The translations under genes were made by a program, and so were the position numbers. The notes under the pieces are model-generated. The model did no database searches. It was not told where the DNA came from and was given only the letters and a program-made list of their open reading frames with translations. A stretch of DNA of 64,000 bases from Acidiluteibacter ferrifornacis (GTDB taxonomy: Bacteria > Bacteroidota > Bacteroidia > Flavobacteriales_E > Vicingaceae). This document shows, piece by piece, positions 21,209-30,625 of this stretch; within the stretch, counting starts at the first letter, position 1; each line of letters begins with the position of its first letter. The DNA lies in assembly GCF_009909615.1 (NCBI RefSeq), contig NZ_WWNE01000005.1, forward strand, positions 334 through 64,333. Reading direction: 5' to 3'.

Positions 21209-21253
21209 GAGCACATAATTCTAAACTAAAAAATAAATTAGAATTATGTGTTC
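21209..21253. terminator. Inverted repeat between convergent genes
   Basis: Arms 21209-21223 (GAGCACATAATTCTA) and 21239-21253 pair with one mismatch around a 15-base A-rich loop. The right arm reaches the stop codon of the ChaN-like gene. No strong T run follows, so efficiency is uncertain. Confidence 0.5.
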
Positions 21254-22107
21254 TAATACGTCTCCGTCACATCCTCATCGACCACAATAATAAAGTCGGC
21301 TTTTTGTTTGGCTTTGGCTGATAACTCGTAAACATTAGCTTGTGTTACAGTAGTTATCGTCAAGTAGTTTAATTCCGGTTTTTGCAATTTCAAATACCAC
21401 AAAATACCTTGGTAATCATCAGAATGATAAGCGCCGTTGTAATGAATGAACGTGCTGTTTGAGTTATAGTTGGCTAAGATAAAATGGGCCATGGTGGCAT
21501 CTTTTAGCGCCTGTGCTCTAGGAAGATTATCTCCGCCGTGTCCGCCCATCATTTTTAACATTTCTACGTATCCACTCAACGAAGAATCATAAGCAATTGG
21601 CAAAGGAGCAATCCATGTTTTTTCTAAATCAGAAATAGAATCCAAACTGCCAAAACCACCTTTGTACACTTTAGAAGCATAACGGCGGGGCACATTTGTC
21701 GCTATAAATGGAAACTGCTTGCTTTTGGCAAAGTCCACTAACGGTTGGTAATCTGTTCTGAAATTGTTCCACAAACGTGCAGTAGTATCTAATCCTTTGG
21801 CATCAATAGAATCGGAGAGGTAAAGATTCAGTGGTTCTTGATTGTCGGCTTCAAACATTTCTGCTCCTACAGTTACTGCTTTTGTTTCAGCAATACTTTT
21901 CAATACTTCCAACTCTAACCAATGCGAAATGGCATTATTGTGCAATTCTCCAAATAAGATGATGTCGCTTTTATCGGCTGCTTTTACCAACTTTTTATAA
22001 GTGGTCTTTTTCCCTTTGGCGGTATAAATTTGATAAGCATCCATTTTCTGTGCAACAGATGCATGAACAAGAAGGATCGTGAAAATACTGGTAAGAATCG
22101 CTTTCAT
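21253..22107 (-). CDS. ChaN-like heme-uptake (Tiki superfamily) protein
   Basis: 284 residues from ATG at 22107, with a signal peptide (MKAILTSIFTILLVHASVAQ). ILFGELHNNAISH near residue 55 carries the conserved E-x-H-x3-H of the ChaN/Tiki fold, followed by GAEMFEADNQ and, later, MMGGHGG and FIHYNGAYHSDDYQGILWYL. ChaN proteins bind heme or iron in pairs and are linked to heme uptake in Campylobacter and Pseudomonas. It is the last gene of the heme operon, seven bases after the HmuY lipoprotein gene. A longer frame to 22134 would overlap that gene and lacks a good signal peptide. Confidence 0.85.
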   Translation of the reverse strand: MKAILTSIFTILLVHASVAQKMDAYQIYTAKGKKTTYKKLVKAADKSDIILFGELHNNAISHWLELEVLKSIAETKAVTVGAEMFEADNQEPLNLYLSDSIDAKGLDTTARLWNNFRTDYQPLVDFAKSKQFPFIATNVPRRYASKVYKGGFGSLDSISDLEKTWIAPLPIAYDSSLSGYVEMLKMMGGHGGDNLPRAQALKDATMAHFILANYNSNSTFIHYNGAYHSDDYQGILWYLKLQKPELNYLTITTVTQANVYELSAKAKQKADFIIVVDEDVTETY

Positions 22108-22114
22108 ATTTTTC

Positions 22115-23077
22115 TTAAAGTCGTTTGAATTCAAAGGTAGGAGTTCCTTTTATTCCATTGTCGTCATAAAAGTCTAAAAAGTGCAATTTGTAGGTATATC
22201 CTTCATTGTCATTCAAAATAAAAACATGTTCTGGATAAATGGTAAAGGTATTGTCATTCAAATCAAAGTATTTCCATTCGTAGCCAATGGCATCTTGATC
22301 GGTAGAAAAGGTATACGCTGAGGTTGATGCTAAATCAATTGTTTTAAAGGCAGTAGTTCTGTCTTCGGCTACTTTGGTTCGGTAAGGATTCAACAATACT
22401 CCAGTTACTAAATAGGGATTGATTGGATCGTAAAAAATGTGGGTGTATTGTGTGAAACAGATGTCGTATGCTGTTTTTAAGGGTTCAATTTGAATTGGTG
22501 TGTGATTGGTAAACGAATAAGCGATTCGGTTATAGAGGTCATTCTTTGCAACAGTTGCTTCATGAAAATCCGAACCATCGAGTTTCGCATATTTAAACGA
22601 ATAGATTCCATCTTTGATGGTGAGGAATTGGATTTTAATCAATCCCATAGATTTGCCTTTTGGCGTATATCCTCTATCAATCACAATTACTTTATTGTGG
22701 TTTTCCCAATTGCCAATCGCCAAGCTATCTTTTATTCCAGTTTGATGATCACTTTTAAAGGTAAGTCCCGAGGTAGAGGTGAGGCTATTGAAATCAGAAG
22801 TAGGACTAATGGCAGCTTTTGCAGCCAATCCACTGTTTAAATAAATGAAATTACTGCTATCGCTCGCATCAAAAGATATGTCCCAATCGGTCTTCAAGTT
22901 TCGACTAACTTCTGTGTTTGTGCCCAAGTCAAACCATACTTGGTCTGCATAGGTTTCCGTCATATTCACTGAATTTATGATGACTTCACCTTCAGTAACT
23001 GGCGCAGCCAAAGGCAATTCTTCTTGCTCGCAGGCAATCAATACGAGCGCAATTATCGGGAATATGATTCGTCTCAA
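22115..23077 (-). CDS. hmuY: HmuY-like heme-binding lipoprotein
   Basis: 320 residues with a lipoprotein signal (MRRIIFPIIALVLIAC, lipobox Cys16). HmuY pattern: VWFDLGTNTEV, KTDWDISFDAS, the central GYEWKYFDL and YPEHVFILNDNEGYTYKLHF near the C-terminus. HmuY proteins are cell-surface hemophores passing heme to the HmuR receptor, whose gene directly precedes this one with a four-base overlap (ATGA). It shares WD.xF, a C/VFTxY.T and GY(E/D)WKxFD blocks with the T9SS-exported protein at 29284, so the operon holds two diverged HmuY paralogues. Confidence 0.85.
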   Translation of the reverse strand: MRRIIFPIIALVLIACEQEELPLAAPVTEGEVIINSVNMTETYADQVWFDLGTNTEVSRNLKTDWDISFDASDSSNFIYLNSGLAAKAAISPTSDFNSLTSTSGLTFKSDHQTGIKDSLAIGNWENHNKVIVIDRGYTPKGKSMGLIKIQFLTIKDGIYSFKYAKLDGSDFHEATVAKNDLYNRIAYSFTNHTPIQIEPLKTAYDICFTQYTHIFYDPINPYLVTGVLLNPYRTKVAEDRTTAFKTIDLASTSAYTFSTDQDAIGYEWKYFDLNDNTFTIYPEHVFILNDNEGYTYKLHFLDFYDDNGIKGTPTFEFKRL

Positions 23078-25353
23078 TTTTTAGAAATTTGAAGGTTTAA
23101 CTTAAGAAATAGCGTTCTTCCTGTTCCCACAGAAATGGATGATCCTGAACCGCCGTGTGCATTGTTGCTCGATAAGGTGGAGTTCACTTGCTGCACATCA
23201 AATATATTTTTTACGCCTAGGCCCACTTGAAAACGTTTCTTGAAAAATTGTTTAGAAACAGTGGCATCAAGCAATTGGTAGCTTTCAATGGTTTGTTTTA
23301 CAATTGCTCCATCGGTGTTGTATCCAAAGCTTGGCAACTCTCCTTGGTGCTTGAAGTAGGCAGAAAGGGTGAGTTGAGGTTTTTTAAAGACGTAAGAGGC
23401 ATTGGCCATAAATTCTGCAGAATAGCTGAATTCATCCACTGAAATGTCGTCTGAAAGGTCATTGTATCGACCAATGTAAGAAGCGCCTAGGTTGACTTTT
23501 AGCGCATTTCTGATGAAAGAAACATTTGCAGTTGCTCCTTGCGTTTTGTTTTTACCAATGTTCACATAAATGGCGGTGTCGCCACTGGTAGAAACTTGAG
23601 CGAAGTCGATTAAGTTGGTGATGTCGTTGTAAAACAAATTGATCGAGCTTTTTATCAATACTTTTTGAACTAACTTTTTATGAGAAATACTCAAGGAATA
23701 GTTATCTGACTGTTCTGCTTTTAAATCTGAATTCCCAAATAAACTGTGATTCACATCGTCAAAGTTGAAATACAATTCTTTCAACGTTGGAGCTCTGAAA
23801 CCTTGAGCGTAGGAACCTCGGAAGGTAAAAGGTCCTTTTACATATTTCAGATTTAAGGAAGGGGTCACTGGCATATCGTATTTGGTATTGTATCCGTATC
23901 GAACGCCCGGTTTTATCACAAAATCTTTAAATGGGGAAAGTTCTGCTGTTGCAAAAAATGCATAATCGCCTAATTGCTGTTCATTGTCTTCGATTCGTTT
24001 ACCGGTGGCCAATTCAAAGTTGAGGTCGTAGCCCAATTCATAATTGATCCATTTATCGGCATGAGTGGTGGTAATGCTACCTCTCGACATCAACAACTGA
24101 TAATCGGTGGTGTCTTGTAAATCATTGGTAGCGGTTTCTTCAATCAATTGTTGTTCGAGCGTAGTTAAATCCTTCAAGTAGGCTTCTTTTACTCGGCGAT
24201 AATCGTTGAACGCAGCGATTACATTTATCCGTCTATTTTGACCCACTTTCCCATTCAACGACAAGGAATTGTCCCAACGTTTAGTGTGGTAATAATCGTC
24301 AAAAGCAACGATGGTTGTGGCTTTTGTTCTTGGTATTCCAAGATTGGTGATTTCTTCATTAAAGTATTCGGATTTGAATCCGAGTTGCATTTTTTTGAAT
24401 TGATAGAGGTATTGGATTCGACCAAAGTACTGCTCTTTGGCATTCCATTGATCCACTCGATTGCTATCCGCTAACTCTTGATCAAACGAAGGGAAAAATT
24501 CATCGGATGGCTTCCATCCGTCAAAGTAATTTCTTCCACCAGAGATGCGCAGGTGTTGGTTGGGTTTAATTTTAAAGGCAGTATTTACATTGAAGTTGTA
24601 GGTTCCTATATTTTCGGTGTAGGTAGTAATTCCTACTGTCATTTTTTGAGCTGATTCTTTTTTGGTGATGATATTGATTGTTCCGGCAAGGGCATTACTT
24701 CCGTAGTTTACACTCAAAGGCCCTTCCACAATCTCGATGCGTTCCACATCATTTAAATTGATCTGACTTAAGTCGATTTCTCCATCCAAGCGACCAATCA
24801 CAGGTACGCCATCGATTAATATTTTTACATTTTGTCCGCTCAAGCCCTGAAGACTCATGCCTGAACCTAAAATGTTGTCATTAGATATTCTGATGTTTAA
24901 TTCATTGGTCAGCACATCTTTCAAGGTAACGGCCGCCATGCCTTCTATTTTTTCTCTACCAATAACATGTACTTTGTGTACCGAATGGTCTTGGCTTCCA
25001 GGAGCATATTGGGCCGTGACAATCACTTCATTAATGGAGTAGTTGGCTGGTTGTAATTGATAGGTATAGTCTTTTCCTGATTCGATGGTATCGGATACTG
25101 TTTGATAGCCAATAAAAGAGACATGAATCATCAAATTCGAATTTCCATTGAGCACGGAATTGGGGATGGTGAAAAGTCCGTTATTATCGGTAGAAAAGGC
25201 AAGAGGAGTCGCCTCCTCTTGCTCAATTTGAATGGTGGCTCCAACCAATGGCGACTTATTCTCGGAATCTATAATGGAAATGTTTTGCGCATTAACGAAT
25301 TGCAAGTTGATCAATATAGCCAACGAAAAGACGATCCATTGAAATCCATTCAT
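23074..25353 (-). CDS. hmuR: HmuR-type TonB-dependent heme receptor
   Basis: 759 residues. Signal peptide (1-22), a carboxypeptidase-like beta-sandwich at about 23-110 (PLVGATIQIE, LSFIGYQTVSDTI-like strand), a plug with LSGQNVKILIDGVPVIGRLD and NDVERIEIVEGPLSVNYGSN, and a 22-strand barrel ending in aromatic-rich strands. Near residue 535 lies GFRAPTLKELYFNF followed by GNSDLKAE, the FRAP and NPNL-type blocks characteristic of heme receptors. It moves heme across the outer membrane, energised by TonB-ExbBD encoded elsewhere. It overlaps the lipoprotein gene by four bases and follows hemS by one base. Confidence 0.92.
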   Translation of the reverse strand: MNGFQWIVFSLAILINLQFVNAQNISIIDSENKSPLVGATIQIEQEEATPLAFSTDNNGLFTIPNSVLNGNSNLMIHVSFIGYQTVSDTIESGKDYTYQLQPANYSINEVIVTAQYAPGSQDHSVHKVHVIGREKIEGMAAVTLKDVLTNELNIRISNDNILGSGMSLQGLSGQNVKILIDGVPVIGRLDGEIDLSQINLNDVERIEIVEGPLSVNYGSNALAGTINIITKKESAQKMTVGITTYTENIGTYNFNVNTAFKIKPNQHLRISGGRNYFDGWKPSDEFFPSFDQELADSNRVDQWNAKEQYFGRIQYLYQFKKMQLGFKSEYFNEEITNLGIPRTKATTIVAFDDYYHTKRWDNSLSLNGKVGQNRRINVIAAFNDYRRVKEAYLKDLTTLEQQLIEETATNDLQDTTDYQLLMSRGSITTTHADKWINYELGYDLNFELATGKRIEDNEQQLGDYAFFATAELSPFKDFVIKPGVRYGYNTKYDMPVTPSLNLKYVKGPFTFRGSYAQGFRAPTLKELYFNFDDVNHSLFGNSDLKAEQSDNYSLSISHKKLVQKVLIKSSINLFYNDITNLIDFAQVSTSGDTAIYVNIGKNKTQGATANVSFIRNALKVNLGASYIGRYNDLSDDISVDEFSYSAEFMANASYVFKKPQLTLSAYFKHQGELPSFGYNTDGAIVKQTIESYQLLDATVSKQFFKKRFQVGLGVKNIFDVQQVNSTLSSNNAHGGSGSSISVGTGRTLFLKLNLQISKN

Positions 25354-25354
25354 A

Positions 25355-26416
25355 TTAGTTATTCAATTTTAATTTGTTTTCAACTTCTTGAACGATTGCT
25401 CTCCATTCTTCCAATTCTGGAATGCCTGGTTTTCTTTTTCCAAAAAGTTGAGCGATTTGATTTCCTTTTTTGTCGAAACATTCTAAGGCGGTTACAGTGC
25501 CATCTTCAGAAGGTTTTCTAACAATCCATGAGTCAGCAATAGAAGACTCTTTAACATGTAGATTAAAATCAGGATCCAATACATTGAACCAATCTCCATG
25601 ATCCATTAATTTCTTCACAGGTCCTGTATGGATTTGAATCATACCTGGATTTCCAACAAATACCATGATTGGAGTTTCTCTTTCAGCTGCCGTTGTTACC
25701 ACCTCTCTCAAAGCGTTATTCGAAACTTTAACCGCATAATTTCCTTCTGGAGCTAATCGCAACGCTTGCGTTCTAGTTAATCCATTCTTTCTCAATAAAC
25801 CGAAAAAATGATGGGTGTCAGTTAGGTTTCTCCAACCTTCCTGGAAAGAAGCGACGTCAATTTCGCTATCTGCTTTTTCTGCTGGTAAAGCTGCTTTTGG
25901 CTCTGTAATTATAATGGAAGACTGATCATCTGATTTATATTTTTCAACGATTTGATCAAAAACTGCATCATTACTCAACGGTGTCAGGTAAATTTTATGG
26001 ATGGCTTCACCGTCTTTGGCAAAAAACTGTAAACTTTTTCTTGGTTTCTCTTCTGCATTTTCAACTACTGCGAATGCTGAACCCCAACTAGCAAAGAAGA
26101 TTCTCAAATCAATGTCTTCGCCAACGAACAGGCCAACATGGGGATTCTCCAATGAGGGATTCAAGTAAACGCCTTTTCGTTCATGAACTACATCGTCATT
26201 TCTCGTCAATGCCATTACTTTGCCTAGAGCTTCTACTTCAGCTAGAATTGCCGTAAACTCTGGTTTTAATCGAGTTACATTTTCGCCACAGTTCAAAGCC
26301 AATAACTCAACTTCTGTAACATTTAATTCGTCAGCTGCATTTCTAATTCTTAATTGTGGTTTAAGTTGTTTTAAAACTTCCCATTTTTCTTTTAGTGAAG
26401 ATGTTTGTGTTTCCAT
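25355..26416 (-). CDS. hmuS: HemS/HmuS-family hemin-degrading factor
   Basis: 353 residues, cytoplasmic. Two HemS repeats are visible: LGKVMALTRNDDVVHERKGV in the first and NALREVVTTAAERETPIMVF with IQIHTGPVKKL in the second; ADSWIVRKPSEDGTVTALEC closes the domain. The family binds heme and opens the ring or releases iron inside the cell. It sits between the ABC transporter genes and the receptor, the normal position in Bacteroidota heme loci. Confidence 0.92.
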   Translation of the reverse strand: METQTSSLKEKWEVLKQLKPQLRIRNAADELNVTEVELLALNCGENVTRLKPEFTAILAEVEALGKVMALTRNDDVVHERKGVYLNPSLENPHVGLFVGEDIDLRIFFASWGSAFAVVENAEEKPRKSLQFFAKDGEAIHKIYLTPLSNDAVFDQIVEKYKSDDQSSIIITEPKAALPAEKADSEIDVASFQEGWRNLTDTHHFFGLLRKNGLTRTQALRLAPEGNYAVKVSNNALREVVTTAAERETPIMVFVGNPGMIQIHTGPVKKLMDHGDWFNVLDPDFNLHVKESSIADSWIVRKPSEDGTVTALECFDKKGNQIAQLFGKRKPGIPELEEWRAIVQEVENKLKLNN

Positions 26417-26437
26417 GGATTTTATATTTAGTGTGTA

Positions 26438-27280
26438 TTATATTGTTAAAGAGACTTCATGTCCTTGCACTGTTGGATTAAATTTTTGATACATTTTGCC
26501 ATAACATCCAAAGTATACCACTGGGCAGTTGTGGTAAGGATGCTGATCTATTTTTACTCTCAATTCATAGCAAGAGCTGATTAATTCTTCGTTTAAAACT
26601 TCTTTTGCTGTTCCGAAGGCCAATTGATTTCCGTTTTTCAACAACAGAATTTTATCGGCATATTGTGCAGCCATATTCAAATCATGCAATACCAATAAGG
26701 TGACGTTTCGGTCTTCCGAGAATTGCTTGATTCGCTGTAGCATCAAGTGCTGATGATGAATGTCTAAGTTGTTTAGAGGTTCATCTAAAAGCAGTAGCTT
26801 ATTGGTGTTTTCAGTGTTATTGAGTTGAATTTGAGCAAATACTCTAGCGGTTTGAACCCGTTGCTTCTCTCCACCTGAAAGGGTTTCGTATGATCGATCT
26901 GCAAATTTTTGCATATCCGTAAACTCCAATGCCTTTTCAACTGCTTCAAAATCTTGCCGACTAGGTTGATTGTTAAAGTGAGGATATCGGCCCATCAATA
27001 CTACTTCCCGCACGGGGAAATCATAACTCATCTGAATTTGTTGCGTAAGCACTGCTCTTTCCAAAGCCATCTCATCAGACGGAAAATCGGTGATCAATTG
27101 ATCTTTCCAAAATACTGAAGACGAAGGGAGGGTTCCACTGATGGCTTTTATTAACGTAGATTTTCCTGCACCGTTAGGTCCAAGAATGGCAATCAATTCT
27201 CCCGGCTTTACTTCAAAACCAATTTTGCTTAATAGTTGCTTTTGGCCAACTGCTATCGATAAGTCTTTAATTGCTAACAT
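26438..27280 (-). CDS. hmuV: Heme ABC transporter ATP-binding protein
   Basis: 280 residues. Walker A GPNGAGKST, signature LSGGEKQRVQTA, Walker B KLLLLDEPLNNLD, switch His in LLVLHDLNMAAQYAD. The family resemblance is HmuV/FecE. It energises import of heme across the inner membrane with the permease at 27280, whose last base is shared with this gene's start (one-base overlap). A C-terminal tail of about 25 residues (YHNCPVVYFGC) is unusual but unexplained. Confidence 0.93.
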   Translation of the reverse strand: MLAIKDLSIAVGQKQLLSKIGFEVKPGELIAILGPNGAGKSTLIKAISGTLPSSSVFWKDQLITDFPSDEMALERAVLTQQIQMSYDFPVREVVLMGRYPHFNNQPSRQDFEAVEKALEFTDMQKFADRSYETLSGGEKQRVQTARVFAQIQLNNTENTNKLLLLDEPLNNLDIHHQHLMLQRIKQFSEDRNVTLLVLHDLNMAAQYADKILLLKNGNQLAFGTAKEVLNEELISSCYELRVKIDQHPYHNCPVVYFGCYGKMYQKFNPTVQGHEVSLTI

Positions 27281-28320
27281 CAGAACGTAGATTTTTTTTG
27301 TTTCAACAAGAGGTAAAGAAAGATAGGAGCACCGGCTAATGCAGTGATAATGCCGATTGGAATCTCTGCAGGCGCTACTATTGTTCTAGAGAAATTATCT
27401 GCCCAACACAACAATAATGCACCTGCTAGGGCAGAGGTAGGCAATAAGAATCGATGGTCAGATCCGCCAACTAATCGTAGAATATGAGGAACCACTAAAC
27501 CTACAAAGCCAATCATTCCGCAAAAGGCAACCGCAGTTCCTACGGACAAAGCCGTAAATATGACAACTCTTCGTTTTAGTTTTTCAGTGTTGATTCCAAT
27601 GTATGCTGCTTCTTGTTCTCCAAGAGCCAATGCATTGAATTGCTTGTGCAATGGAAGTATGAAAATTAGTGTCAAAATAGTACAAGCTCCAACAATCAAG
27701 ACATTGTACCAAGTAGATCCGCCTAAACTTCCCATGGTCCAAAAGGTCAATGTTCGCAACTGCACATCATTTGCTAAGTAAGTCAATAATCCTGTTCCAG
27801 CTGCAGCCACTGCATTTATGGCAATTCCCGAAAGGAGCATGGTCATTACATTGATTTTCTTTCCTTCTTTGGCTATTCTAAAAATGAATACGATCACGAC
27901 AATGGCACCAACGAAAGTAGCCACAGAAAGCAAGGACAAGCCTGCAAAAGAATAGCTCGAAAATAAAGTGTCTCCGGCTAAAACAATTACAATGGCTGCT
28001 GCCAACATGGCTCCGGAAGAAATTCCAATAATGGTTGGGTCAGCTAAGGGGTTTCTGAATAAACCTTGAAGCGCTGCTCCGCATAATGCGAGAGAGCTGC
28101 CAATGAATAAACTCATTAAAACTCTAGGTAGGCGAATTCCCCAAAGAATGGCATTTTGCTGAAACAGTTCAGTGGGGTTTTCTTGACCGGTGAATTTATT
28201 GGTCAGCAATGAAATAAATTGATCAAAAGAAATAGAAACTGATCCGATGTTGATCGATACGAAAAACGATACAATCAGAGCAGCAACTAATCCTAAAGAT
28301 GTGATACGCTTTTTATTCAA
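27280..28320 (-). CDS. hmuU: Heme ABC transporter permease (FecCD family)
   Basis: 346 residues with about ten membrane helices. The FecCD markers are seen: LPRVLMSLFIGSSLALCGAA, GLFRNPLADPTIIGISSGAM, and FVGLVVPHILRLVGGSDHR facing the ATPase. It forms the inner-membrane channel with HmuV. Its start overlaps the end of the hmuT gene by eight bases. Confidence 0.93.
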   Translation of the reverse strand: MNKKRITSLGLVAALIVSFFVSINIGSVSISFDQFISLLTNKFTGQENPTELFQQNAILWGIRLPRVLMSLFIGSSLALCGAALQGLFRNPLADPTIIGISSGAMLAAAIVIVLAGDTLFSSYSFAGLSLLSVATFVGAIVVIVFIFRIAKEGKKINVMTMLLSGIAINAVAAAGTGLLTYLANDVQLRTLTFWTMGSLGGSTWYNVLIVGACTILTLIFILPLHKQFNALALGEQEAAYIGINTEKLKRRVVIFTALSVGTAVAFCGMIGFVGLVVPHILRLVGGSDHRFLLPTSALAGALLLCWADNFSRTIVAPAEIPIGIITALAGAPIFLYLLLKQKKSTF

Positions 28321-29209
28321 CGGTAATTGATTTGAATTTTTGATTCAGCTCTAGTGCTGCTTTTCCTACTCTTGGGCCGAAACCTGCTAAGTACTGACCT
28401 TCTAAAGCGAAGAATTGATTCTTTTTAGCTGCTGTTGTTACTGCAATAGATGGAATTTGTTGGATTCCGTCCGCACCTTGTAAGCTGTTCATTCCAGATT
28501 CAAAAAGGATGATTAAGTCTGGGTTAGCCGCTACCATTGATTCTGCAGTTAATGGCTTGTATTCTTCAAAATCATTGGTTCCATTGATTCCTCCAGCCAA
28601 TTGAATCAGTTGAGCTACTGAAGTGTTGCTTCCACCAACCATCATGTTTCCAACGCCTCTTGCGTAAATAAACACAGCTGTTGGTTGAGATGTAAGTGGC
28701 TCTAATTTAGAAATGTCTTCATCAATAGTGGCATTGATTTGAATAGCAGTTTCCAATTGGTTCAATTCTTTTGCAATGGTTTCAATCAGCTTTTTGGTTC
28801 CGTTAATAGAATATTCTTGCTCTACTAATAAGGTTTTGACTCCTGCTGCTTCCAGTTGCTGAACGAGTTCTGCTTTTATTTCGTCTTTTTTTGCAATCAC
28901 TAAATCTGGCTGCATGGAGATAATACCTTCCGCTTGAACACTCGTGATGTGACCTAACTTCGGCAAACCTTGAATAGCTTCCGGATAAGTACTGGTGATG
29001 TCCGTTCCTACTATTTTATCGCCTAATCCTAGCTCAGCAACTATTTCACTTACTACGCCACTTAACGTGACTATTCGTTGGTATTCTTTTGTTTCAACTT
29101 GCACTATTTCTTCCTTATTTCCTTCTGTTGAAGTAGTTGGTGAGTCACAAGAGGCGAATCCAAGTATTAAAAGGATTACTGCTAAAAGAAAGGGTGTTTT
29201 ATAGGTCAT
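28313..29209 (-). CDS. hmuT: Heme ABC transporter substrate-binding lipoprotein
   Basis: 298 residues from ATG at 29209. The lipoprotein signal MTYKTPFLLAVILLILGFAS is followed by Cys21, a lipobox (GFAS|C). The BtuF/HmuT fold is shown by QRIVTLSGVVSEIVAELGLG, IVGTDITSTYPEAI, LPKLGHITSVQAEGI and LVIAKKDE. It delivers heme from the periplasm to HmuUV. An upstream extension to 29266 would place a non-signal stretch ahead of the lipobox and is rejected. Confidence 0.9.
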   Translation of the reverse strand: MTYKTPFLLAVILLILGFASCDSPTTSTEGNKEEIVQVETKEYQRIVTLSGVVSEIVAELGLGDKIVGTDITSTYPEAIQGLPKLGHITSVQAEGIISMQPDLVIAKKDEIKAELVQQLEAAGVKTLLVEQEYSINGTKKLIETIAKELNQLETAIQINATIDEDISKLEPLTSQPTAVFIYARGVGNMMVGGSNTSVAQLIQLAGGINGTNDFEEYKPLTAESMVAANPDLIILFESGMNSLQGADGIQQIPSIAVTTAAKKNQFFALEGQYLAGFGPRVGKAALELNQKFKSITVE

Positions 29210-29226
29210 TTTTTTAAATTTTAAAA

Positions 29227-29257
29227 AGTCAGGCGGAAAGTATATTCCCACCTGACT
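29227..29257 (-). terminator. Hairpin between the T9SS HmuY gene and hmuT (attenuator candidate)
   Basis: Arms AGTCAGG(C)GG(A)AA and their complement (29227-29239 with 29245-29257) form a stem of about 13 bp with two weak positions, followed on the minus strand by TTTTTAAAA and, 17 bases later, the hmuT ATG. Position within an otherwise continuous operon suggests partial termination after the first gene. Confidence 0.5.
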
Positions 29258-29283
29258 GATACACACTAATTATTAATCTATTT

Positions 29284-30540
29284 TTATTGAACAATTAATT
29301 TTTCAGTCACAGCACCTTTTGAGTGCGTTAACCGAATAAAGTAGACACCTGTTTGCAGACGAGGTATTGAAATTTGATGTTGATCAAAAGAAGAATTGAT
29401 TTGTATATTCTCTTCCGAAACCAATTGTCCATTCATAGAGATGACACTTAGTTGTGCATTTGAAATTCCTGAAGGCATATCAGCAACTATAGAAATAGAT
29501 CCTTCTGCTTTTGCGGGGTTTGGATAGATGTAAAACTGTCCGTTTTGAGCTGTATTCTCTTGGATAGAAGTGGTGGTTAGTTTCTGCTTCGAGAAATAGA
29601 AGTTCCCATTTCCACTTCCACCAAATCCTGTCATTACCACTTTCCAAACTGCGCTATCTTGTGTCTTTACAAAATATACAGTACTGTCATCGATTAAGTA
29701 AGAAAACGTTGCAAAATCAAATGATTTCCAATCGTATCCGATTGTCGCGAAGTCCGTATTGAAAGTATGGTTGCTGTAATTTTGATAGGTGGAAACATCG
29801 TTAACTGGATAAACCTTTACTGCTTCAACTCCTATATTTTGAACAATTCCTGAAACTCCATAAGGCGTTGGAATGAATGTGGTGTATTTAGTAAATACTA
29901 AATCCCAACTGTTGCTCATCGGCTCAATGTCGATAATGCTATCGTTTGCAATAGAGTAGTAGCCGAAATTCTTTCCTGTGAAGTGGGCTTTGGTCAATAC
30001 TTTATTGACCATGTTTGATCCATTTAAATCAGCCACTTTAAAGTAGTATTTTCCACCGGCTAGTTGCTCTATCCAAATTTTCTTGATTTGTCCATTTGCC
30101 ATTTTGGCGATATATAGACTATCACCAGTTACATAATGTGTCACTTGGTTGTACTTTCCCCAACCTAAATCAAATGGATCACTTGAAAGTGTGCCGTTGA
30201 AAGCTCCTCGATTCCATGATTTGTCATCATTATAGGTTGCTGTCCAAGACGACATTCCCGTTGTATCCATGGTTGCCCAGGCAGAGGTGTCACCATTGGG
30301 ATAGATATAAAGTTCTGCCCCATTAGCGGTGTTGAACAAGATCGGAGCAGAGAATCCATTGATTTGGAAACCCATGTCCCAATCTGCGGAAGCATTTGTC
30401 GAAACAGTTCCATTTTCCAAACTGTACCATGCTTGGTTGGTATATCCTGCACCAATTGATGCTGAATCATCTGCTAATTGTGCTTTTGAAGTGTTTGAGA
30501 ATAGGAAGGCGAATGATCCTAGTAGTAAAATTTTTTTCAT
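29284..30540 (-). CDS. HmuY-like protein with T9SS C-terminal sorting domain
   Basis: 418 residues. A signal peptidase I-type signal (MKKILLLGSFAFLFSNTSKA), then an HmuY-like domain over about 25-335 with NQAWYSLENGTV, ADWDMGFQING, NSWDLVFTKYTTFI, TIGYDWKSFDFATFSYL and STVYFVKTQDS. The last 80 residues are a type A sorting domain (FYIYPNPA, LSVISMNGQLV, LQTGVYFIRLTHSKG, TEKLIVQ). T9SS cargo is moved to the cell surface or outside. It is the first gene of the heme operon and differs from the lipoprotein paralogue only in its export route, so I infer a secreted or surface-attached hemophore. Confidence 0.85.
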   Translation of the reverse strand: MKKILLLGSFAFLFSNTSKAQLADDSASIGAGYTNQAWYSLENGTVSTNASADWDMGFQINGFSAPILFNTANGAELYIYPNGDTSAWATMDTTGMSSWTATYNDDKSWNRGAFNGTLSSDPFDLGWGKYNQVTHYVTGDSLYIAKMANGQIKKIWIEQLAGGKYYFKVADLNGSNMVNKVLTKAHFTGKNFGYYSIANDSIIDIEPMSNSWDLVFTKYTTFIPTPYGVSGIVQNIGVEAVKVYPVNDVSTYQNYSNHTFNTDFATIGYDWKSFDFATFSYLIDDSTVYFVKTQDSAVWKVVMTGFGGSGNGNFYFSKQKLTTTSIQENTAQNGQFYIYPNPAKAEGSISIVADMPSGISNAQLSVISMNGQLVSEENIQINSSFDQHQISIPRLQTGVYFIRLTHSKGAVTEKLIVQ

Positions 30541-30593: not shown

Positions 30594-30625
30594 CAAAGAT
30601 AGCTTCAACAGAAAGTTGCTGTCAA
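30594..30625 (-). promoter_or_regulatory. Promoter of the heme operon
   Basis: Minus-strand TATCTTTG (30594-30601) matches TAnnTTTG, and TTG (30623-30625) lies 21 bases upstream, the best-matched Bacteroidota promoter in this window. Predicted transcript begins near 30587, giving a leader of about 47 bases before the ATG at 30540. Confidence 0.7.

Follow-up and report, generated by a model that had tools for sequence, protein, structure and literature searches.

Why should one heme receptor be accompanied by two HmuY-like proteins that carry different export signals? The question is raised by a 64-kb stretch of DNA from Acidiluteibacter ferrifornacis (64,000 nucleotides, hereafter the window), in whose open reading frame list eight close-packed genes, all on the minus strand, run from 30540 down to 21253. 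Read 5' to 3' on that strand they are Y1, T, U, V, S, R, Y2 and ChaN, with the HmuY-like genes Y1 (29284..30540, 418 aa) and Y2 (22115..23077) in first and seventh place and R (23074..25353) encoding a TonB-dependent receptor of the heme type. In the published passages available, HmuY mostly occurs as one protein per receptor; here a single receptor is accompanied by two HmuY proteins, both double-sized and differing in their export signals. We read the run as a heme uptake operon that would be built on a conserved surface triad of Y1, R and Y2, with Y1 in the outer position and Y2 by the receptor, and give this explanation as a whole a probability of about 0.62. A preliminary description had proposed a heme uptake operon with the receptor and a ChaN-like gene in the same run, and domains of heme families were indeed found in one same-strand run of genes.

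The same description had assigned an HmuY-like domain with a sorting domain of the type IX secretion system (T9SS) to the first gene and an HmuY lipoprotein to the seventh, and both assignments were borne out. Y2 carries a lipobox and matches Pfam HmuY (PF14064) at E 3.4e-18, with 66.7 bits against a curated cut-off of 27. Window Y1 gave no match to this model up to E 10, so its HmuY kinship was shown by other means: comparison with Y2, profiles, relatives and fold. BLASTP aligned Y1 with Y2 at 27% over 320 positions (E 7e-23), the profile-profile comparison (hhalign) reached a probability of 100 (E 8e-47, 272 columns), and Y1 used as query against the window's genome returned two matches, Y1 and Y2 themselves. 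For the relatives, named genomes were scanned with a Y1 alignment, giving 79 loci (L numbers below) whose frames were searched with the window proteins. PF14064 was found at E <= 1e-3 in 47/47 Y2 scanned (the window protein and 46 of 64 Y2 frames) and in 32 of the 49 Y1 scanned (the window protein and 48 of 78 Y1 frames longer than 300 aa, a set that excluded L081); window Y1 was not among the 32.

Structure prediction of both paralogues, which the preliminary description had put forward as a check, returned the HmuY fold in each; a lack of this fold in the T9SS protein, which that description had named as one ground for refutation, did not arise. The AlphaFold2 models had a mean predicted local distance difference test score of 93.1 for Y1 (alignment of 49 sequences) and 95.2 for Y2 (47 sequences). 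The Y2 model matched HmuY with heme (3h8t) at Z 15.8 (138 aligned, 2.2 Å) and BfrB, PinO, apo-HmuY, BVU_2192, BF2707 and Tfo at Z 15.3 to 13.5, and its 10 Foldseek matches at E <= 1e-3 were all HmuY-family chains. The HmuY part of the Y1 model matched PinO (6r2h) at Z 14.2 (131 aligned, 3.0 Å) and BVU_2192, BfrB and BF2707 at Z 13.1. With full-length Y1, Foldseek alone placed unrelated beta proteins on top and BfrB at rank 37, an effect that the sorting domain probably causes by drawing matches of its own; a second aligner ranked the HmuY family first, and the lack of 3h8t and 6eu8 from its Y1 list is no evidence of a difference. Judged from these alignments and models, Y1 and Y2 are homologous and share the HmuY fold.

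The HmuY parts of Y1 and Y2 comprise about 300 residues each, against 157 positions of the Pfam model. Aligning the N-terminal with the C-terminal half gave a probability of 92.4 (E 5e-7) for Y2 and 91.0 (E 1e-6) for Y1, with paired motifs near WD..F and VY.(V/I)K, while 40 column shuffles each reached at best 0.8 and 1.7 and reversed copies 0.2 and 0.4. A single HmuY domain with an insert was considered and set aside. Speaking for an insert, Pfam splits one model across the halves of four Y2, the N-halves matching the N part and the C-halves running from positions 42, 64, 90 or 92 to the end, and detects no HmuY in either half of window Y1; the half-to-half alignments, compared with the shuffles, outweigh this. 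We therefore favor an apparently duplicated, possibly strand-swapped HmuY domain in each protein.

The two proteins differ in their export signals. Y1 shows a signal peptide by eye and, at residues 338-417 (29290..29529, minus strand), a C-terminal T9SS type A sorting domain matched by Por_Secre_tail (PF18962, E 2.8e-14) and TIGR04183 (E 1.9e-13); model residues 313-397 align with the C-terminal domain of mirolase (8qb1) at Z 12.1 (78 aligned, 1.7 Å). Por_Secre_tail was present in 49/49 Y1 scanned. A search of the window's genome that covered SprA and sorting domains gave SprA at 2637 bits and 114 sorting-domain matches, 109 of which passed the cut-off. With a C-terminal sorting domain and a T9SS in the same genome, Y1 is predicted to be exported as type A cargo. 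A lipobox was flagged in 63/64 Y2 frames, two of the 63 sites (L053, L084) having been moved by hand, and the same rule flagged 6/78 Y1 frames, among which only L081 looks real by eye. In window Y2 the lipobox Cys and the residues after it read CEQEEL (23015..23032, minus strand). This is near C-X-K-(D/E)2, described as the optimal surface lipoprotein export signal of Capnocytophaga canimorsus in passages of PMC5080379 and present exactly in 32/64 Y2. Because of its likeness to this Bacteroidota export signal, Y2 may well face outwards, as a relay needs.

Y1, R and Y2 occurred together in 65/79 loci, on one strand in 65/65; the labels of the records include Flavobacteriales, Chitinophagales, Sphingobacteriales and Saprospirales. 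Of the 14 remaining loci, 12 are truncated close to Y1 or R, where their contigs end. In a class sample of 395 genomes (G numbers), 147 had a match to the joint profile, 134 of these had two or more, and among the matches listed a Y2 accompanied 117/129 Y1 genes on their contig at no more than 12 kb (median 3.6 kb). G346 and G366, both rated 100% complete, had a single, Y1-sized match each. G001, of the window's own genus, had no match to the Y1/Y2 profiles, which makes the set patchy. From 63 loci with both proteins long enough, and with L045, L058, L064, L080, L086, L101, L103 and L108 excluded beforehand as near copies, cut or odd frames, a tree was built of 56 Y1 and 56 Y2 domains (55 loci and the window). 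They fell into two clades with a branch support of 100 among loci found by the Y1 pattern, a sample that does not extend to HmuY proteins at large; with two clades, the pair is old. The conserved Y1-R-Y2 set and this tree strengthen the idea that both Y proteins are important to one receptor, and one receptor seems, from these sequences, to need two capture proteins.

The other genes of the run complete an importer. R combines a carboxypeptidase-like N-terminal extension with barrel (E 6.2e-31) and Plug (E 2.4e-19) domains. T (28313..29209) is a periplasmic binding protein (Peripla_BP_2, PF01497, E 2.6e-30) with the lipobox FASC by eye, U (27280..28320) a FecCD-type permease (PF01032, E 4e-90), V (26438..27280) an ATPase of heme ATP-binding cassette (ABC) transporters (ABC_tran, E 6.1e-23; NCBIfam NF010068, 285.2 bits against a cut-off of 261) and S (25355..26416) a HemS/ChuX protein (HemS, PF05171, E 5.1e-78; ChuX_HutX, PF06228, E 9.4e-57), and ChaN (21253..22107) encodes a ChaN-like heme-binding protein (PF04187, E 6.8e-55). 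T was started at ATG 29209 (listed frame GTG 29266) and ChaN at ATG 22107 (listed frame TTG 22134); their Pfam scans began at 29218 and 22101, within a few residues of these ATG codons. Y2 starts at a TTG overlapping the stop codon of R, and U and V overlap by one base. Upstream of Y1, TATCTTTG at 30594-30601 agrees with a Bacteroidota promoter consensus; as a candidate promoter it was rejected, as the motif occurs in the window at chance frequency (94 found, 94.2 expected). The preliminary labels HmuTUV and HmuS stood in part. Binding protein, permease, heme ATPase, HemS and a receptor with the FRAP/His/NxxL loop, the makings of a Hem/HmuRSTUV-type importer, are all present; S is, by Pfam, HemS/ChuX and not the CobN-like de-chelatase HmuS of the Bacteroidota hmuYRSTUV. 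Their domains place T, U, V and S with the Yersinia importers and apart from the Bacteroidota hmuSTUV.

What lies between Y1 and R varies among the 65 triads, with families defined by clustering and one Pfam scan of one example each. T, U, V and S stand there, as in the window, in 5/65, a DUF6607 protein in 6/65 (L038, L040, L042, L077, L089, L096) and other single genes in 3/65, and the order is R-Y2-Y1 in 11/65. A CbiX-domain protein occupies the place in 17/65 (L035, L036, L037, L041, L045, L048, L051, L053-L056, L061, L062, L069, L071, L078, L109), in 16 of the 17 with a PepSY (11) or FMN_bind/Fer4 (5) protein. A lipobox was flagged in 19/20 CbiX-type frames; by eye the L109 site is an internal Cys, and L054, which was not flagged, reads NSSC. 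With a chelatase-fold lipoprotein adjoining a heme receptor, iron may be removed outside the cytoplasm, and the CbiX-type protein is a candidate extracytoplasmic de-chelatase, possibly the counterpart of CobN-like HmuS. Nothing stands between Y1 and R in 23/65; three of these have S, V, U and T in the opposite direction behind Y2, and five lie behind nirS.

A gene for a cytochrome cd1 protein lies directly before Y1 in L088, L090, L094, L095 and L097, and also, in two frames, in L091, which has Y1 alone of the triad, at the contig end; in L116 (G290) the triad stands directly behind nirS. The L090 protein is full-length NirS, matching Pseudomonas aeruginosa NirS (1bl9) at E 2e-152 vs 1.6e-12 for NirF, and nor-type genes surround the nirS-linked triads by eye. 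PF02239 reached E <= 1e-20 in only 4/395 class genomes, and Y1 adjoins nirS in three of them: G006 and G012, whose coordinates are those of the L094 and L097 genomes, and G290, one contig of 4.1 Mb. G006 and G012 each hold more than one pair, heme-type and nirS-linked. The fourth, G053, has a TonB receptor like R directly behind nirS (L115:13821-15836), with the loop His absent.

Is heme the ligand? According to passages of PMC3832793 and PMC9331221, heme receptors carry a His in a loop between FRAP and NPNL motifs; the latter also mentions mutants with a different behavior. In a motif alignment the window receptor keeps FRAP, the loop His (His536) and NxxL (as NSDL). Among 68 aligned receptors, His536 is kept in 60/61 not marked nirS-linked; the exception, L110, is a near copy of the nirS-linked L090 (branch lengths 0.03 and 0.01) and has lost its upstream part to a contig end. 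On the nirS side the loop His is absent in 7/7 receptors (Ile in 6, Tyr in 1). Residues of the Y proteins change as well. Y1 Tyr130 (mature 109) is found in 73/73 proteins not linked to nirS vs 0/7 nirS-linked, His135 (mature 114) in 71/73 vs 2/7, and Tyr219 (mature 198) in 68/73, with His in 7/7 nirS-linked; Tyr227 (mature 206) is also changed, and Y2 Tyr207 (mature) goes from 59/59 to 0/7. The nirS-linked rows are kin from one clade, save for the G053 receptor, which lies elsewhere on a long branch, its place unsure; these counts are therefore not independent, and Fisher values computed from them cannot be read as probabilities. From its conservation, Y1 His135 (codon 30136..30138, minus strand) is a candidate heme ligand. 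HmuY diversity and ligand pairs are treated in passages of PMC12106395; for His134 and His166 of Porphyromonas gingivalis HmuY, sequence profiles align only both domain ends with Y1/Y2. A possible membership of BtuH in the HmuY family was dropped as unsupported, a text search of PMC8941943 having returned neither "HmuY" nor "Pfam".

The genes and their homology, the fold in the models, the export signals read from sequence and the conserved linkage are what was observed, and together they suggest the following mechanism. Y1 would be exported across the outer membrane by the T9SS and act farther out, released or held on the surface glycan, and the lipoprotein Y2, probably flipped to face the outside, would sit beside R. 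Both double-HmuY proteins would take up heme outside the cell; R would import it, T bind it in the periplasm, U and V move it into the cytoplasm, and S (HemS/ChuX) hold or degrade it. Heme binding by Y1 and Y2, their actual export and the surface position of Y2 are what we infer here. Handing of heme from Y1 to Y2 we consider possible and no better than an even bet. The joint presence of Y1, Y2 and R in differing orders points to joint need and gives no direction of transfer.

An arrangement without a relay, in which Y1 and Y2 work in parallel or form one surface complex with R to serve different heme sources, fits the same data and clashes with the staged reading only on the handover. The shared fold agrees with it, as does the keeping of both proteins with R across gene orders, R-Y2-Y1 included; the differing export signals, kept across two old clades, instead suggest differing positions, and we rate this arrangement as possible, if short of probable. 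It is unlikely, in our view, that Y1 is no heme carrier and binds a heme-bearing protein, or strips its heme, before handing the task on. The weaker Pfam HmuY signal among Y1 proteins would suit such a role, but Y1 has the fold of heme-binding relatives, and changes at its Tyr130, His135, Tyr219 and Tyr227 coincide with the loss of the loop His from the receptor, both within the nirS-linked clade; pocket residues would behave so, though this is a single clade. Another tetrapyrrole, such as a cobamide, is very improbable as the ligand. For U and R the top NCBIfam models are B12 proteins, both below their cut-offs. A cobamide system was nevertheless rejected, given that V clears the heme ABC model, that the operon encodes HemS/ChuX and ChaN domains and that R keeps its loop His.

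Several results weigh against a heme uptake operon with Y1 in the outer position and Y2 by the receptor. Type A cargo of the T9SS may be wholly cell-bound, which weakens a place farther out for Y1. Beyond the missing Pfam match of full-length window Y1, neither of its halves matches Pfam HmuY, His135 is missing in 2/73 Y1 not linked to nirS, and neither of the ligand pairs of known HmuY proteins, His/His or Met/Met, could be located in Y1 or Y2. In CEQEEL of window Y2, Gln replaces the Lys of the export signal. L093 has Y1 and R and no Y2 in its remaining 2.3 kb, and L102 has Y1 without R or Y2 in the 7.6 kb before and 5.4 kb after it. A Y1-type protein in a Marinilabiliales record (L081:7520-8506) has, by eye, the lipobox YSC and no sorting domain, an export route that has been switched. 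Finally, passages of PMC9618737 report that deleting the T9SS-exported HmuY of Flavobacterium columnare altered neither growth nor virulence relative to wild type.

How far is such a pair already known? To our knowledge, the Yersinia HemRSTUV/HmuRSTUV systems have no HmuY proteins and no T9SS. They resemble the window in their receptor, periplasmic binding protein, permease, ATPase and HemS (systems named in PMC3832793). HmuY-HmuR of P. gingivalis (hmuYRSTUV) shares with it an HmuY-fold lipoprotein adjoining a TonB receptor with the heme loop. As passages of PMC12583661 and PMC10434189 have it, that system differs in its one single-size HmuY, its CobN-like de-chelatase HmuS and T, U and V that are other membrane proteins; the window adds a second HmuY with a T9SS sorting domain and has T, U, V and S of another kind. 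The T9SS-secreted HmuY of F. columnare likewise joins an HmuY domain to Por_Secre_tail, and the passages of PMC9618737 mention one HmuY and no lipoprotein partner. In Flavobacterium psychrophilum, the HmuY-like HfpY is co-transcribed with the receptor HfpR and binds heme, but passages of PMC9331221 describe one HmuY and an HfpR loop motif only partly kept. The hmu operon of Porphyromonas endodontalis includes a T9SS-sorting-domain gene upstream of hmuY (PMC11208336), and Prevotella intermedia has two hmuY loci on different chromosomes, the orphan hmuY lying beside a T9SS gene that is induced 104-fold at low iron (PMC10434189). In the passages of these two papers, the T9SS protein near hmuY is not described as HmuY-like in either species; the reference list of PMC10434189 names a paper on two HmuY homologues of P. 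intermedia. An HmuY lipoprotein is also mentioned for Tenacibaculum maritimum (PMC5561996; PMC10288586). A T9SS-exported HmuY and a T9SS gene in an hmu operon are thus known already, from F. columnare and P. endodontalis; a pair of HmuY proteins exported by different routes was not found described in the titles, abstract starts and text passages of the open-licence literature. The observation is real and conserved, and the system is a variant of the HmuY-HmuR type.

What, then, do the triads behind nirS take up? There the triad follows nirS directly, no inner-membrane or degradation genes lie between Y1 and R, the loop His is gone, and the searched genes of heme d1 synthesis were not found. 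No NirDLGH (PF17805) match at E <= 1e-3 turned up in six genomes (G006, G012, G021, G032, G417, G419), with a model that passed its cut-off in 4/14 controls, and G053, G290, G418 and G421 had no match above the cut-off. NirJ stayed below its 515-bit cut-off in the six genomes, a weak test, as none of the 14 controls passed and all gave similar low matches. PF02239 had one match, NirS itself, in five of the six; the L088 genome, with two more, one under the cut-off, may encode a NirN- or NirF-like protein. NirF was sought at default E in the six genomes and in G053 and G290 at 1e-20 only, where it could be missed. With NirDLGH and NirJ, which heme d1 production requires, not found in genomes with nirS, heme d1 synthesis looks absent beside NirS, in searches that covered NirDLGH, NirJ and NirF.

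On these grounds we suggest, tentatively and at rather less than even odds, that the triad is a general surface module for tetrapyrrole capture with an exchangeable processing part, and that the nirS-linked branch of denitrifying Bacteroidota has been retuned to heme d1, made by neighbors and delivered to the periplasm for NirS as a cofactor and not as iron. Divergent synthesis genes, incomplete assemblies, the nirS genome G053, in which no Y1 and so no HmuY pair was found, and the restriction to essentially one clade weigh against this proposal. NirS clades differ in their carriage of nir synthesis genes, as passages of PMC10999283 report. An uptake system for heme d1 was not found described in the open-licence literature. 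The exchangeable modules, a cytoplasmic HemS, an exported CbiX-like lipoprotein with PepSY, or none, form a natural series for asking where heme is dismantled. The nirS-linked branch is the most rewarding thread: if the heme d1 proposal is true, a key enzyme of denitrification would depend on a cofactor passed between species.

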